DNA of 64,000 nt. It comes from Terriglobia bacterium (lineage in GTDB: Bacteria; Acidobacteriota; Terriglobia; Terriglobales; SCQP01). Made by a program: the position numbers and the translations under genes. Under the pieces are notes generated by a model. That model had not been told where the DNA came from. It saw only the letters and a program-made list of their open reading frames with translations, and did no database searches. Shown in pieces: positions 7,214-16,094 of this stretch (within the stretch, counting starts at the first letter, position 1; the number at the start of each line of letters is the position of its first letter). Location: NCBI GenBank assembly GCA_021323595.1, contig JAJPKR010000052.1, positions 1 to 64,000 of the forward strand. The letters are read 5' to 3'.

Positions 7214-9523
7214 CTAATGGCTCGAGGTGTTCGCCGCCTTCTGGTACGGCTTTTGCAGGTACTGCCGCGCCAGCACTTGGGCGTTCTGGGTGTTGTCGTG
7301 GGTCTGGATCGCGAGCTGGTATTCGTTGATGGCGCGGTCGCGCTGCCCGGTGAGATCGAAGATCTTGCCGAGCTGGATATGGCTCCAGACCACCACCCAC
7401 GCGGGCTGCGCGTCGCCATCGATGGCGGCGCGGTATTCGTTGGCGGCTTGCTGCCAGTTTTGCTGCAGATAGTACGCCTCGGCCATGCGGTAGTGGGCCA
7501 GCGAACTGATGGGATTGGCCGCCAGCGCCGCCTGATATTGCTTGAGCGCGCCGGCGAAATCCCCCGCCGCGACGTCGTTGTCCCCGCGCGCGATATCCAC
7601 CTTCACCGTCATCTCCGGCGTCTCTTTGAGCAGCCAATTGTCGGGATCGATGGTGATCTTGCGCGGCCGCGCCTCGGTCTCGAAGCTGTAATCGCTGTCG
7701 GTCCCCTCGACCATCACGCGCTTGGTCTCGGTGGCGCCGTCGGTCTCGATGCGCAGATCGACCGGCATCGAGAATAGATCGAGTGGCTGGTGGAGTTTGC
7801 CGGTGACGCGATAATGCGGCCGCGAACTGAACGTGGGCGTGCCCGCCGCCGGCTGCCCGCTCTGCCGCCGCGGCGCGTCGGCCGCTTGCGCGATGTCGCC
7901 GAGGCGGTAAATCACGTACTCGTCGCTGAAGGTCGGCACCCCCGTGCTGCGGTACCACTCGGAGAAAAAGCTGCGCAGGTCGCTGCCGCTCGACTTTTCC
8001 AGCACCGCCTCGAATTGCTCGGTGGTGGCCGGGCGGCCGCGATACGCGGCCAGGAAATCCCGCATGCCGGCGAAGAGCCGCTGGTCGCCCAGCACCCAGC
8101 GCAGCATGTGGAACAGCATCGCACCCTTGTCGTAGGTCAGATCCTGGAACTGCGGCGAAAAGGCGTAGAGCGAGGCGGTATTGGCCAGCGCCACGTCGGG
8201 ATAGCTCAGCGCCCCCACCATGAACTCCTCGATCACGTTCTGGTAGGCGGCGTTCCCCGCCACCTGCTGCACGTAGAGGCCCTCGCAGAAGCGCGCCGCC
8301 CCGTACTCCAGCCAGGCGTCGTTGAGCGTCGCCGGGCTGACCATCATCCCGAACCATTGCTGCGCGATCTCATCCATCAGCAGGCGATAGTTGAGCGTCG
8401 TGCCGATGCTGCTTTTCGAGAGCAGGATCATGTTGGGCGCGCTCAGCGACGGCAAGCTGTCGTCCGGCAGCTCGATGAAGTGCAAGGTGCTGACCGGACC
8501 CGCGCCGAAGCGCTGCGTCAGGAAGTCGTAAATGCGTCCGGCCGCCTGCCCGTACTGCTGCGTGAGGTCGGCAGGCACGTCCGGGTTGAAGTAAAAATTC
8601 GCGGTCAAGCCGCCGGCGCGCAGCGTGGTCGGGCGCAGTTGGGTGACGATCACCGTCCCGGGAAAGCTCGATTCCCGCTGTTCGTAGCGATAAAGCACCG
8701 TGCCGTTGGCTTGGGGGGTCGCGGTCGGCATGCCGCTGGCCACCAGGCCGAACTGCGGCGGCAGCGCCGCGCTCACCGTCATCGTGAAGCGGTCGGTGCC
8801 GTAGCCGAGCATCGGGAACCATTCGCCGGGATAGAGCAGGAACGCGCCGTCGGGCCCGACATAGGCGGTGCGAATGCCCGCGATCGGGCTCATCTCGGCC
8901 GTGGCCAAGATACCGGAGTAATGGAAGGTCAGGCTGGTCGTCGCGCCTTGCTGCAAGGGCGCCGCGAAGGTCACCGCCACGCCTTGGCTGGTGCGCTGCG
9001 TCGAGAGCGCCTGGCCGCTGGCGTCTTCGACCGAGGCCACCTTCAAGTTCGGGTTCAAAGCGAAGGTGACGGAGGTGACCGGCGACAGTGCCGTCAGGTC
9101 CACCTTGGCCACGGTCGCCAGCTCGTGCTGGGGAAAGTTGAAAGTAAGGTTCAGATCGTAGTTGGTGATCGTGACCCCTTGCCCGCTGCTCGGCTCCGGC
9201 GGCGGCGCCGGCGCGGCCGCGGGAGCTTTGGCCGCCTCCGGGGTCCGCGACAGCACCGGCGGGCCTTGCTGCTGCTGAGACTGCTGCTGCTGGGCTTGCG
9301 GCGCAGGTGCCGGCGCGCCCGCCGCGGGAGTTTTCGCCGCGTCCGGGGTCCGCGACAGCACCGGTGGGCCCTGTTGCTGCTGGGCTTGCGGCTGGGTTTG
9401 TTGACGCGCCCACGCCGGCGCGGCCGCCGCCATGGCCAGCAGCAGGACCGCGGCGGTCAGGGGCCGCGGGGCGCCGGCCCGGCGCGGCCGCTCCTCGCCC
9501 CTCGATGAAGATTTGGTGTTCAT
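7214..9523 (-). CDS. M1-peptidase-like protein with TPR C-terminus; zinc-ligand residues apparently lost
   Basis: M1-like N-domain; LLMDEIAQQWFGMMVSPATLNDAWLEYGAARF occupies the HEXXHxW site; C-terminal TPR repeats; signal peptide at MNTKSSSRGEERPRRAGAPRPLTAAVLLLAMAAAAPAWA. Confidence 0.85.
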   Translation of the reverse strand: MNTKSSSRGEERPRRAGAPRPLTAAVLLLAMAAAAPAWARQQTQPQAQQQQGPPVLSRTPDAAKTPAAGAPAPAPQAQQQQSQQQQGPPVLSRTPEAAKAPAAAPAPPPEPSSGQGVTITNYDLNLTFNFPQHELATVAKVDLTALSPVTSVTFALNPNLKVASVEDASGQALSTQRTSQGVAVTFAAPLQQGATTSLTFHYSGILATAEMSPIAGIRTAYVGPDGAFLLYPGEWFPMLGYGTDRFTMTVSAALPPQFGLVASGMPTATPQANGTVLYRYEQRESSFPGTVIVTQLRPTTLRAGGLTANFYFNPDVPADLTQQYGQAAGRIYDFLTQRFGAGPVSTLHFIELPDDSLPSLSAPNMILLSKSSIGTTLNYRLLMDEIAQQWFGMMVSPATLNDAWLEYGAARFCEGLYVQQVAGNAAYQNVIEEFMVGALSYPDVALANTASLYAFSPQFQDLTYDKGAMLFHMLRWVLGDQRLFAGMRDFLAAYRGRPATTEQFEAVLEKSSGSDLRSFFSEWYRSTGVPTFSDEYVIYRLGDIAQAADAPRRQSGQPAAGTPTFSSRPHYRVTGKLHQPLDLFSMPVDLRIETDGATETKRVMVEGTDSDYSFETEARPRKITIDPDNWLLKETPEMTVKVDIARGDNDVAAGDFAGALKQYQAALAANPISSLAHYRMAEAYYLQQNWQQAANEYRAAIDGDAQPAWVVVWSHIQLGKIFDLTGQRDRAINEYQLAIQTHDNTQNAQVLARQYLQKPYQKAANTSSH
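9217..9382 (-). repeat. Two-copy direct repeat (105-bp period) inside the M1-like gene
   Basis: Encodes QQQQGPPVLSRTPDAAKTPAAG and QQQQGPPVLSRTPEAAKAPAA; DNA tccggggtccgcgacagcaccgg present at about 9237 and 9342. Confidence 0.8.
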
Positions 9524-9796: not shown

Positions 9797-10621
9797 TTAG
9801 AGAAGGTAGATGACGAAGAACAGGAAGATCCAGACGATATCCACGAAGTGCCAGTAATACTCGGCTGCGGTGAGCGAGAAATGGTACGTCTGGTTCATCT
9901 CGCCGCGCTCCATGCGCCAATACACCAGCACCAGGAAGAGCAGTCCGACGCAGACGTGCAGCCCGTGGAAACCCGTCATCCAGTAAAATTGCGAGCCGAA
10001 AACGCCCTGGCTATAGGTGAACTTGTCGAAGGCCTTCAAGAAGCCCCAGTCGTAGCCTTGGATCGCCAGGAAGACGACGCCCAAGATGATCGTCGCCAGC
10101 AGCCAATTCTTCGCCAGCGCGCGCTTGCCGCCGATAAAGGCATGGTGCGACCAGTGATAGGTGAAGCTCGAGAGCACCAGCAGCAGCGTGCCGATCGCGG
10201 GCAGCGAGGTCTCGAGGCGAGGGGCGCCCAGCGGCGGCCAGGTCGTGGCGTGGCCGAAGCGGATATAGAGGTTGTGGGCGAAAAACGAACCGAAGATGGC
10301 GCCTTCCGACAACAGGAAGTACAGAAAACCGCGCCGCAAGATGGCGAAGGTGTAGTTGGGGTCCTGGTGGCGCCGCTCGGCGGCGATCGTCGTCGCCCAG
10401 CCCAGCGCCGGAATCAACACCAGCAAAATCCCCGCCAGCACCAAGAGCGGCAAGGCGTTGAAGCCCGTCGCCACGAGAAAGAAAGCGGTGGCGAAGACGC
10501 CGATGCCAAGGGCGAGCAGGATCGGCCACGCGCTCGGCTGCGGCGCGTGCGCCGAAGGATCGGCATGCGCCGCGGCGGCGGCGTGGGCCGGTGCTGCCGC
10601 GGAATGGGATTCGGTGGCCAT
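9797..10621 (-). CDS. coxC: Cytochrome c oxidase subunit III
   Basis: Seven-TM HCO subunit III; SEGAIFGSFFAHNLYIRFG, TGFHGLHVCVGL, YYWHFVDIVWIFLF. Confidence 0.95.
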   Translation of the reverse strand: MATESHSAAAPAHAAAAAHADPSAHAPQPSAWPILLALGIGVFATAFFLVATGFNALPLLVLAGILLVLIPALGWATTIAAERRHQDPNYTFAILRRGFLYFLLSEGAIFGSFFAHNLYIRFGHATTWPPLGAPRLETSLPAIGTLLLVLSSFTYHWSHHAFIGGKRALAKNWLLATIILGVVFLAIQGYDWGFLKAFDKFTYSQGVFGSQFYWMTGFHGLHVCVGLLFLVLVYWRMERGEMNQTYHFSLTAAEYYWHFVDIVWIFLFFVIYLL

Positions 10622-10642: not shown

Positions 10643-10903
10643 CTAGAAATCGGCCTTGTAGGCGGTGTGGGACCAGGGGAATTGCCAGATCACCGGCCCC
10701 GGGCGCACCCAGCCGCCGCGCACCAGCCAATACGACGAAAGCAAAAATCCCACCGCCAGGATCCCCAGGATCCATGCGAAGCGCAAATTGCGGCGGCGCA
10801 GCCGCGGATCATAGGGCGAGGGCGGCCAGGCCCGCGACGCGGCGCCGCCGGCCCCGCCGTTGGCGGCCGCGCCGTTCACCGGAAGCAAAATCGGTTTCCT
10901 CAT
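10643..10903 (-). CDS. Small single-TM hypothetical protein in oxidase operon
   Basis: 86-aa ORF MRKPILLPVNGA...FAWILGILAVGFLLSSYWLV between ctaG and coxC, starting 3 nt after the ctaG stop. Confidence 0.7.
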   Translation of the reverse strand: MRKPILLPVNGAAANGGAGGAASRAWPPSPYDPRLRRRNLRFAWILGILAVGFLLSSYWLVRGGWVRPGPVIWQFPWSHTAYKADF

Positions 10904-10905
10904 GG

Positions 10906-11442
10906 CTACTTCGGAAACAGCGTATAGTTCAGCGTCACTTCGGTGACGGTGCCCGGCAAGCCGGGATTGACCTCGTAAATCACCGGCAGCGTCTTGGTCT
11001 GATGCGGCGCCAGCTCCTGGTCGCTGAAGCAGAAGCATTGCATCAGCGCCAGCGTCTTGGCTGCCGCCTCGGGATAAATGGCGTGAATCGCGCGGAACCG
11101 GATCGGCTGGTCGGTCGGGTTGAAGAATGTGTACGCGTTCTCCACCCGTTCGCCCACCTTCACGCGCTGCAGGGAGTCCTTGGGCTCGAACTGGATCGGC
11201 AAGGCCGTCGAGACCTCGCCGGTGAACATCATGTTGAGCGTGCGCCCGTCCGCGGCGGTCGTGGCGGCGCGGTTCACGGGCGCGACGGCAATGCCGTAGT
11301 GCTCGCACCAGACGCGAAACAGCGGGATGTTGGCGAAGGCGAAGGCGAACATCACCGGCACGATCGCCAGCAGCAGCCAAGCCATGCGGCCCCGGTGCTT
11401 GCGCGCGGAAATCGGTGCGGGATGAGAGGAAATCCGGCTCAC
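10906..11442 (-). CDS. ctaG: Cytochrome c oxidase assembly protein CtaG/Cox11
   Basis: FANIPLFRVWCEHYGIA, MMFTGEVSTALPIQFEP, ALMQCFCFSDQELAPHQTKTLPVIYEVNP. Confidence 0.93.
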   Translation of the reverse strand: MSRISSHPAPISARKHRGRMAWLLLAIVPVMFAFAFANIPLFRVWCEHYGIAVAPVNRAATTAADGRTLNMMFTGEVSTALPIQFEPKDSLQRVKVGERVENAYTFFNPTDQPIRFRAIHAIYPEAAAKTLALMQCFCFSDQELAPHQTKTLPVIYEVNPGLPGTVTEVTLNYTLFPK

Positions 11443-13888: not shown

Positions 13889-14868
13889 TGATTCCCTCCT
13901 GCCAGATGCTGCACGTGCGCGTAGAGCGCCGCCATCTCCGCCTGCGTCAGCGTCCCGAAGCCGGGCATCATGCGCCCCGGCAAGCCGTGCGTCACCAGAT
14001 GCGAAAAGGCGGCGGCGTTGGTTTCCCAGCCGCCGATCAGCGGCTGGCGGAAGGGCGCGGCGGTGACCTCGACGGTCGGCGTGGCCGCGCGGTCCGGCCC
14101 CGGATAGTACGGCGTCAGCATTTGCACCGGAATGCCGCCTTGCCCGTCCGGACCATGGCAGCTGGCGCAATAGGTGGCGTACAGCGCGGCGCCTGCCGCG
14201 TTATCGGCCACCGCCGGCGCCGGCGGATCCGGCGGCGGCCCCTTCTGCGCCATCAGCTTCATCGCCAGATCGATGGGAATGCGCGGCCCCTGCGGCACCG
14301 GCTTGAGCGGCGGCAACGGCGTGGGCCCGCTGGGCGCCGCCGTGGGTGGCGGCAGCGCCGCGATCTGCGCCGCCGTGACCGGCTTGGGGTCGGGAATCCA
14401 ATGCTGCACGTAATGCACCACCGCCATCCGCTGCTCCGCCGTCAGCACGCCCTCGAAGCTGGGCATGGCCGTGCCCGGCGAGCCGTTGGTGACGGTATGG
14501 AACAGGGTCAGGATGTCGGTGCCGTAGCGGAACTTCGGCTGATGGAAGTTGCGCGGCGGCGGATTCAGCCCCGCCGAACGCGGTCCGTTGCCGTAGCCCT
14601 CCTCGCCGTGGCAGGGTACGCAGTTCAGCTCGAAGACTTGCTTGCCTTCCGCCGTGAGCTGCGGCGTGTCCTTGATCAGCGCCCGCAGGTCCACCGTTTC
14701 CGCCGGCTTTTCCTTGATGTCGGGAGTGCGATTGAACAAGAAACGCGCCACGAATTCGGCCTTGCCGTACTCGCCGCCGGCGGCGACATAGATGATCCCC
14801 ACCAGCACCAAAATCACGATCGCCAGCGACACCACCTGCCGGATTTGCGTCTTCGTGGTTGGGCTCAT
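13885..14868 (-). CDS. Diheme cytochrome c
   Basis: Two CXXCH (CVPCH, CASCH), N-terminal TM anchor, Pro-rich linker between domains; 4-bp overlap with coxB. Confidence 0.9.
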   Translation of the reverse strand: MSPTTKTQIRQVVSLAIVILVLVGIIYVAAGGEYGKAEFVARFLFNRTPDIKEKPAETVDLRALIKDTPQLTAEGKQVFELNCVPCHGEEGYGNGPRSAGLNPPPRNFHQPKFRYGTDILTLFHTVTNGSPGTAMPSFEGVLTAEQRMAVVHYVQHWIPDPKPVTAAQIAALPPPTAAPSGPTPLPPLKPVPQGPRIPIDLAMKLMAQKGPPPDPPAPAVADNAAGAALYATYCASCHGPDGQGGIPVQMLTPYYPGPDRAATPTVEVTAAPFRQPLIGGWETNAAAFSHLVTHGLPGRMMPGFGTLTQAEMAALYAHVQHLAGGNQ

Positions 14869-16094
14869 GCCAGATACCTCCCGGCCACCGAGTTCACCAG
14901 CTTCGGATCGCCGATCGGCACCGTCGAGTGCCGCCGCAACAGCCGCGCCACCGTCAAGCCGAAGAGCGCGAAGAAGAACAGGAAGGCGCCGACATCGGTC
15001 CAGTTCGGCAGCACGAAGCTCGCATGATGCACCGGCAGCACCAGCCAGTACACGTCGAACCATTCGGCGATCAGCACCAGCCAGGCCATCGTCAGGATTA
15101 CGTTCTCGTTTCGGCGCACCTTTTGGTTCAGCAAAACGCAGAACGGGAACACCCACTTGGCGAAGAGCAAAAACAGAAACACCCAGCCCCAGCCGCCCAC
15201 GATGCGCCGGTGAAAGAACGAGGTCTCTTCGGGGAAGTTCGAATACCAGATCAGGAAATACTGCTCGAACCCAATATAGACCATGAAGATGCAGAAGGCG
15301 TGCAGCATGCGCGCCAGGTCCACGTAATGCCGGTCGGTGACGATCTCGCCCAGCCAGCCCCGCCGCCGCATGATCACGCTCATCACGATCATCAGCGCCA
15401 GCGCCGCTTCGAAGAGCCCGGCGAAGGTGTAGACGCCGAACATGCTCGACGACCAATCGGGCTGCAGCGACATGATCCAGTCCACCGAGGCCAGGGTGAA
15501 GGTCACGGCGAAGACGATCATGAAGGCGGCGGCCATGCGGCCGTTCAAGCTCGGCAGCTTGCCGAACCCGGTCGCGGCGCGGCGGTTGATCTGGCCGCCC
15601 TCGCGATCCTGCCGCAGCGAGCGGAAGATGAAGAAGAGGCCGAAGAACGCCCAGATCAGCAGATAGATCATGGTGCGTTCGCTATAGAACGGAAAGCTGA
15701 AATAGTGCGCTTTGTTGGCGCGGTCGAAATGAAAGCCCGCCTGCGCCCAGGGATAGATCCGGCGCACGCCCAGCAGCAGCGCCACCCCGAACACCAACGC
15801 CCAGGGCAGGTACGACGCTGCCGCCTCCGCCAGCCGGCGGAAGACCACCGACCAAGTGGCGCTGGTCACGTGCTCGAGCGCGACCAGAAACAGCCCGCCC
15901 AGCGCCAGCACGAGGAAATAGAAGTAGTTGACGAGAAAACTCTCCCATACGCGGCCGGTGTCGAACTTCAGTCCCACCAGAAACAGCACCACGCCGATCG
16001 CCAGCGCCGCCCACAACTGCTGGCGGTAGGCGCGGGAGATGGGCGCCGGGCCCGGATCGCTCACGGAAGTGATTTGCGGTTCATGCATGGGCAA
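14865..16094 (-). CDS. actF: Alternative complex III membrane subunit ActF
   Basis: Ten-TM NrfD-like protein in actABCDE order: WAALAIGVVLFLVGLKFD, YPWAQAGFHFDRANKAHYFSFPFYSERTMIYL. Confidence 0.88.
   Translation of the reverse strand: MPMHEPQITSVSDPGPAPISRAYRQQLWAALAIGVVLFLVGLKFDTGRVWESFLVNYFYFLVLALGGLFLVALEHVTSATWSVVFRRLAEAAASYLPWALVFGVALLLGVRRIYPWAQAGFHFDRANKAHYFSFPFYSERTMIYLLIWAFFGLFFIFRSLRQDREGGQINRRAATGFGKLPSLNGRMAAAFMIVFAVTFTLASVDWIMSLQPDWSSSMFGVYTFAGLFEAALALMIVMSVIMRRRGWLGEIVTDRHYVDLARMLHAFCIFMVYIGFEQYFLIWYSNFPEETSFFHRRIVGGWGWVFLFLLFAKWVFPFCVLLNQKVRRNENVILTMAWLVLIAEWFDVYWLVLPVHHASFVLPNWTDVGAFLFFFALFGLTVARLLRRHSTVPIGDPKLVNSVAGRYLA

Follow-up and report, generated by a model that had tools for sequence, protein, structure and literature searches.

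A predicted exported M1-like pseudopeptidase with Ig-like and TPR domains, conserved in Acidobacteriota and typically encoded behind lpxB

On the minus strand of the window (the whole stretch of 64,000 nucleotides of Terriglobia DNA analysed here), a gene at 7214..9523 with its ATG at 9523 encodes a predicted exported M1-like pseudopeptidase of 769 aa with Ig-like and TPR domains. The locus raises the question of how a protein built like a zinc aminopeptidase came to be without its zinc ligands, and what such a protein may do instead. Pseudopeptidases as a kind are known. The family described below, the repeated loss of its site and its linkage to lpxB appear unreported in the searchable literature, where we found no paper on such a family in Acidobacteria and none on M1 pseudopeptidases with such an architecture (preprints and most subscription papers lay outside the search).

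Architecture and active site of the protein

The gene is a genuine open frame and all its features are given here on the minus strand, the original prediction having named no strand. Its sequence starts with a predicted Sec signal peptide (9404..9523; h-region LTAAVLLLAMAAAAPA, cleavage near AWA/RQ), and in a heuristic scan run without a null control a signal-like segment preceded the domain in 143/144 homologs. The protein is presumably periplasmic. A Q/P-rich linker follows (9201..9410), for which the model has low confidence; it consists of two 105-nt tandem copies that are 75% identical, a duplication correctly recognized in the original prediction, and is not duplicated in the aligned relatives. 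Next comes an N-terminal beta domain (residues 117-312, 8588..9175), delimited by the model and a weak Peptidase_M1_N match, and a thermolysin-like catalytic-fold domain (residues 313-531, 7931..8587), identified by PF01433, the model and M1 matches in the PDB. The Ig-like beta domain (residues 532-626, 7646..7930) was recognized from the model and from conservation, and the C-terminal TPR domain (residues 636-757, 7253..7618) from Pfam, the model and conservation.

The proposal of an M1 fold joined to TPRs was borne out by several lines of evidence. PF01433 matched at 63.3 bits, above its curated cut-off of 27.7, and covered profile positions 67-218 only, and TPR_2 matched at 36.2 bits with a cut-off of 27, while no NCBIfam model, curated aminopeptidase models included, matched above cut-off. 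The AlphaFold2 model, built from a 105-row alignment, was confident (mean pLDDT 86.3, pTM 0.83), with 618 residues at pLDDT ≥90 and the low-confidence part mainly in residues 1-105. This was further supported by Foldseek against the PDB, where the best matches were IRAP, PSA and ERAP1/2, with E-values down to 2.4e-28 and a TM-score of about 0.5-0.56 by query length, so that the three-dimensional arrangement of M1 aminopeptidases is present. With the M1 family (aminopeptidase N, ERAP1/2, IRAP, LTA4H, M1dr 6a8z) the protein thus shares the N-terminal beta and thermolysin-like domains, with significant matches in both sequence and fold, but its C-terminal part consists of TPRs where M1 enzymes usually have the helical domain IV.

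The protein also differs from M1 enzymes in lacking the zinc ligands and the GAMEN Glu. Its motif reads D384-E385-I-A-Q388-Q-W ... W404-L-E-Y407-G-A-A-R, and alignment to solved M1 enzymes (D. radiodurans 6a8z) placed D384 and Q388 at the two zinc histidines (degenerate HEXXH, 8360..8374) and Tyr407 at the third ligand, normally Glu (8303..8305), as had been read from the sequence at the outset. An active M1 enzyme would carry HEXXH and a downstream Glu at these positions. The catalytic Glu is retained as E385. At the position of the GAMEN exopeptidase motif the alignments gave LPSLSAP without a Glu (residues 357-363, 8435..8455; whole region LPSLSAPNMILLS), and the motif is missing from the relatives shown as well. 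Tyr464 (8132..8134, YxKG), which stands where the transition-state Tyr of M1 enzymes would be expected, is present by alignment; it is retained within the GTDB family of the window and missing from most of the wider family. The Gln-Trp right after the motif, Gly408 and Lys466 are near-invariant family-wide.

A conserved family with a repeatedly lost zinc site

Genomes with a match numbered 14/14 in the GTDB family, 147/150 in the order and 292/299 in the class Terriglobia, and nearly all of the matches listed cover the model as far as its TPRs. Outside the class, the whole architecture was recovered at 40 loci in 20 further Acidobacteriota families at 25-32% identity; the figure of 251/396 for the phylum takes in weak matches to M1 enzymes of the ordinary kind and does not measure the pseudo-M1/TPR family. 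The named relatives in the genome collection all belong to Acidobacteriota, including Acidobacteriales/Terriglobales and Acidobacteriaceae, and a scan of the collection for two short motifs returned only this phylum. In a FastTree phylogeny made without the motif columns, the family formed one clade apart from the M1 paralogs of the same genomes (98% local support), and the window protein belongs to it both by its full-length profile match and by its place in that clade.

The gene is under purifying selection, as close pairs gave dN/dS values of 0.10-0.18 over the whole gene and 0.04-0.16 around the pseudo-site by simple Nei-Gojobori counting. Columns with ≥90% identity made up 10/196 of the N-terminal beta domain and 18/218 of the catalytic-fold domain, 12/69 of the Ig-like domain and 25/125 of the TPR domain; conservation in the family is highest in its Ig-like and TPR parts.

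At the zinc site, D, E, Q and Y occur without exception in the 14 sequences of the GTDB family of the window. The DxxxQ signature, for which the original prediction asked whether it is conserved as a clade, is so at this level, but it varies elsewhere across the phylum. At the four positions, 127 homologs read N-T-H-N (15), R-E-Y-Q (15), D-E-Q-Y (14), N-T-H-D (9) and about 50 other combinations, with H-E-H-E in only three of them. Deeper sampling of the GTDB family f5 by 13 more genomes added six, so that H-E-H-E is retained in only 9/143 homologs. Relatives that share the architecture and carry HEXXH had been named in the original prediction as grounds for a local mutation; they do exist, but the mutation is not local, as site loss is the rule throughout the phylum. 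If regain is excluded, the zinc site was lost at least 15 times, and free parsimony gives 7 changes (143 rows), counts that rest on one FastTree tree and vary with it. The nine keepers of H-E-H-E are probably not ordinary aminopeptidases either, since none has a GAMEN-like Glu and 8/9 carry Phe, Ser or Gln where the catalytic Tyr would be expected.

Family f5 also carries H-E-H-D, H-E-H-N, H-E-R-D, H-E-R-Q, L-E-R-D and Y-A-N-A, and losses in progress there are among those counted. At its loci L195-L207, one orthologous gene is found with its zinc site intact, lost in part or lost entirely, which captures a pseudoenzyme in the making. A pseudoenzyme is commonly presented as the outcome of a single loss in a single clade. 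In the present case one orthologous family, near-universal in the class, appears to have gone through at least 15 losses of this zinc site, and with all stages side by side in f5 it becomes testable in which order the site was lost and when activity ceased to be needed.

Linkage to lpxB and position behind the oxidase genes

Clustering of neighbouring genes placed lpxB, the gene for lipid-A-disaccharide synthase (TIGR00215 match above cut-off), immediately upstream and in the same orientation at most loci. Among 101 homolog loci picked without regard to lpxB, of which 5 end at a contig edge, the two genes are adjacent in 72. The gap between the two genes has a median of 11 bp and is ≤100 bp in 56 loci. 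Even where protein identity has fallen to 27-45%, and across many GTDB families, the pair stays together, though the other neighbours vary; MnmA lies upstream of lpxB in some sub-lineages and MsbA-like ABC exporters in others. These two, together with a HIT protein and RlpA, were rejected as conserved neighbours, being confined to sub-lineages. The linkage offers this large family without a name a concrete role that can be tested, and little is known of the envelope biology of its phylum.

At L175, L179, L181, L183-L185, L191 and L192, one or two ABC exporters immediately precede the pair of lpxB and pseudopeptidase gene, an order seen in some Terriglobia; where tested they resemble MsbA, below the curated cut-off, and the arrangement is possibly an operon for lipid A synthesis and export.

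Most exceptions to the linkage fall outside the class in a single clade with good support, which has 20 rows and lpxB adjacent in none. Adjacency to lpxB is a typical and not a necessary feature of the family. The site of this clade (L134, L135, L138, L140, L142, L144, L146-L148, L151, L152, L154, L155, L157, L160-L162, L167, L168, L172) reads R-E-x-x-[YF]...Q with few exceptions; the usual form is R-E-x-x-Y, with Q at the position of the third ligand. Joint absence of the gene and lpxB was also considered as evidence, as 4/5 gene-less genomes of the class outside the order of the window lack lpxB too. It was set aside because these assemblies are 80-94% complete and the two genes are normally adjacent, and a contig gap explains the pattern.

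The genome of the window is itself an exception. Others of its family keep the linkage, but here the gene is not behind lpxB and lies about 270 bp downstream of coxC (cytochrome c oxidase subunit III, 9797..10621, minus strand). The same strand carries COX3, CtaG, COX1 and COX2 between 9797 and 14023. The placement directly downstream of a terminal oxidase operon, noted in the original prediction, is therefore correct locally, but it is not conserved, as cox genes were found next to homologs at 0/81 loci, nearest genera included. The lpxB locus of this genome (L215, 5033-7342, contig G000:C51) is on another contig, where the upstream neighbours of lpxB are as in related genera and the pseudopeptidase gene is gone; a different frame now stands behind lpxB. 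Because this lpxB locus has kept its upstream neighbours without the pseudopeptidase gene, the oxidase position looks like the result of a move next to coxC in the lineage of the window.

Two frames near the oxidase genes gave no Pfam match at E ≤ 1e-5, a small one between coxC and ctaG (10646-10975) and a 409-aa one upstream (14868-16094), which, we presume, resembles the membrane subunit of alternative complex III.

Possible function and alternative explanations

Our best reading, for which we see about an even chance, is that sequence and context describe an exported, catalytically dead M1-fold protein that would act by binding, without proteolysis, in the assembly of lipid A/LPS or of the outer membrane. 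A conserved scaffold or binding role in place of proteolysis had been suggested from the start; a conserved protein without a peptidase site is what we found, and the binding role is plausible. A role in the assembly of LptD or outer-membrane proteins is what the lpxB linkage together with the architecture would suggest. More tentatively, and with the balance leaning against so specific a proposal, this would be an Acidobacteriota-specific outer-membrane/LPS biogenesis factor derived from a periplasmic M1 peptidase, in which cutting was lost many times independently, the old zinc pocket has become fixed in a different non-catalytic form in each lineage (D-E-x-x-Q/Y, N-T-x-x-H, R-E-x-x-Y, N-Q-x-x-R), and the TPR domain is the shared working part.

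The 20-row clade and the genome of the window are both without the linkage, with lpxB elsewhere in such genomes, and operons can persist without a shared pathway. The protein could be a pseudopeptidase scaffold unrelated to lipid A, its place behind lpxB being an inherited operon order and its TPRs binding another periplasmic partner. We regard this as rather unlikely, given that the pair with lpxB is kept over such low protein identities and so many GTDB families while the other neighbours change. As for the oxidase genes, the shared strand and the short distance behind coxC would fit a helper of the terminal oxidase, for example in cytochrome oxidase assembly. This explanation is very improbable; a role with the terminal oxidase was rejected as a guide to function because cox genes are common to no homolog locus, and the position looks like a lineage-specific move.

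The remaining alternatives concern the active site. E385 and Tyr464 remain in the window protein, so that unusual metal or acid-base chemistry is conceivable from the sequence, and an enzyme still active with an altered centre, using either a different metal held by D/E/Q/Y ligands or metal-free chemistry via E385 and Tyr464, would agree with the invariance of D384, E385, Q388 and Y407 in the window's family, as in a functional pocket, and with the retained Tyr464. This we consider improbable, as the corresponding positions in relatives with this architecture are N-T-x-x-H, R-E-x-x-Y, N-Q-x-x-R, R-R-x-x-Y and others, a range to which one common chemistry is hard to fit, and the GAMEN motif is lost. 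The protein was first seen in one draft genome, which also holds M1 paralogs with HEXXH, and an ordinary M1 aminopeptidase marred by a sequencing error or by recent pseudogenisation might have been suspected. There is next to no chance of this; the signature recurs in 13 other genomes of six genera, the frame is open and dN/dS is low, and local mutation, sequencing error and pseudogene are alike refuted by the family data.

For the binding factor that we favour, the following course can be imagined. The ancestor would have been a zinc peptidase of the periplasm whose gene stood behind lpxB. In many lineages, independently of one another, the zinc site would then have eroded, with selection maintaining the fold, the Ig-like domain and most of all the TPR domain. 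A partner may be bound at the TPR face, and an unfolded or edge-strand client may occupy the cleft that once received substrates. By analogy, the mode of action could be that of BepA on LptD, minus the protease.

There are precedents for parts of this proposal. The M1-homology domain of Taf2 is not known to have peptidase function. It serves structurally within a complex (PMC6220335), and TAF2/Taf2 of TFIID (6hqa) was also found by our sequence search. However, Taf2 is a eukaryotic nuclear transcription factor with no TPR and no envelope link, so the resemblance is one of principle only. In pseudoproteases of the iRhom type, a peptidase fold is retained for binding after the catalytic residues are lost (PMC6451368), but their fold and biology are unrelated to those of the window protein. 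BepA/YfgC is a periplasmic protein that takes part in the assembly and quality control of LptD. It combines an M48 peptidase with TPRs and has a chaperone-like function in LptD assembly beside its protease function (PMC8423444). It resembles the window protein in having an exported metallopeptidase-type domain followed by TPRs, the envelope role of the window protein being presumed, but its domain is M48 and not M1 and its HEXXH is intact; it is an analogue and no relative, and the Pfam scan of the window protein gave M1 and no M48 domain. As a point against our reading, the 3.5-Mb genome of the window holds nine M48 matches (contigs C5, C9, C18, C22, C24, C26, C28 and C62), some in frames of about 500 aa, and a BepA-type factor may already exist there.
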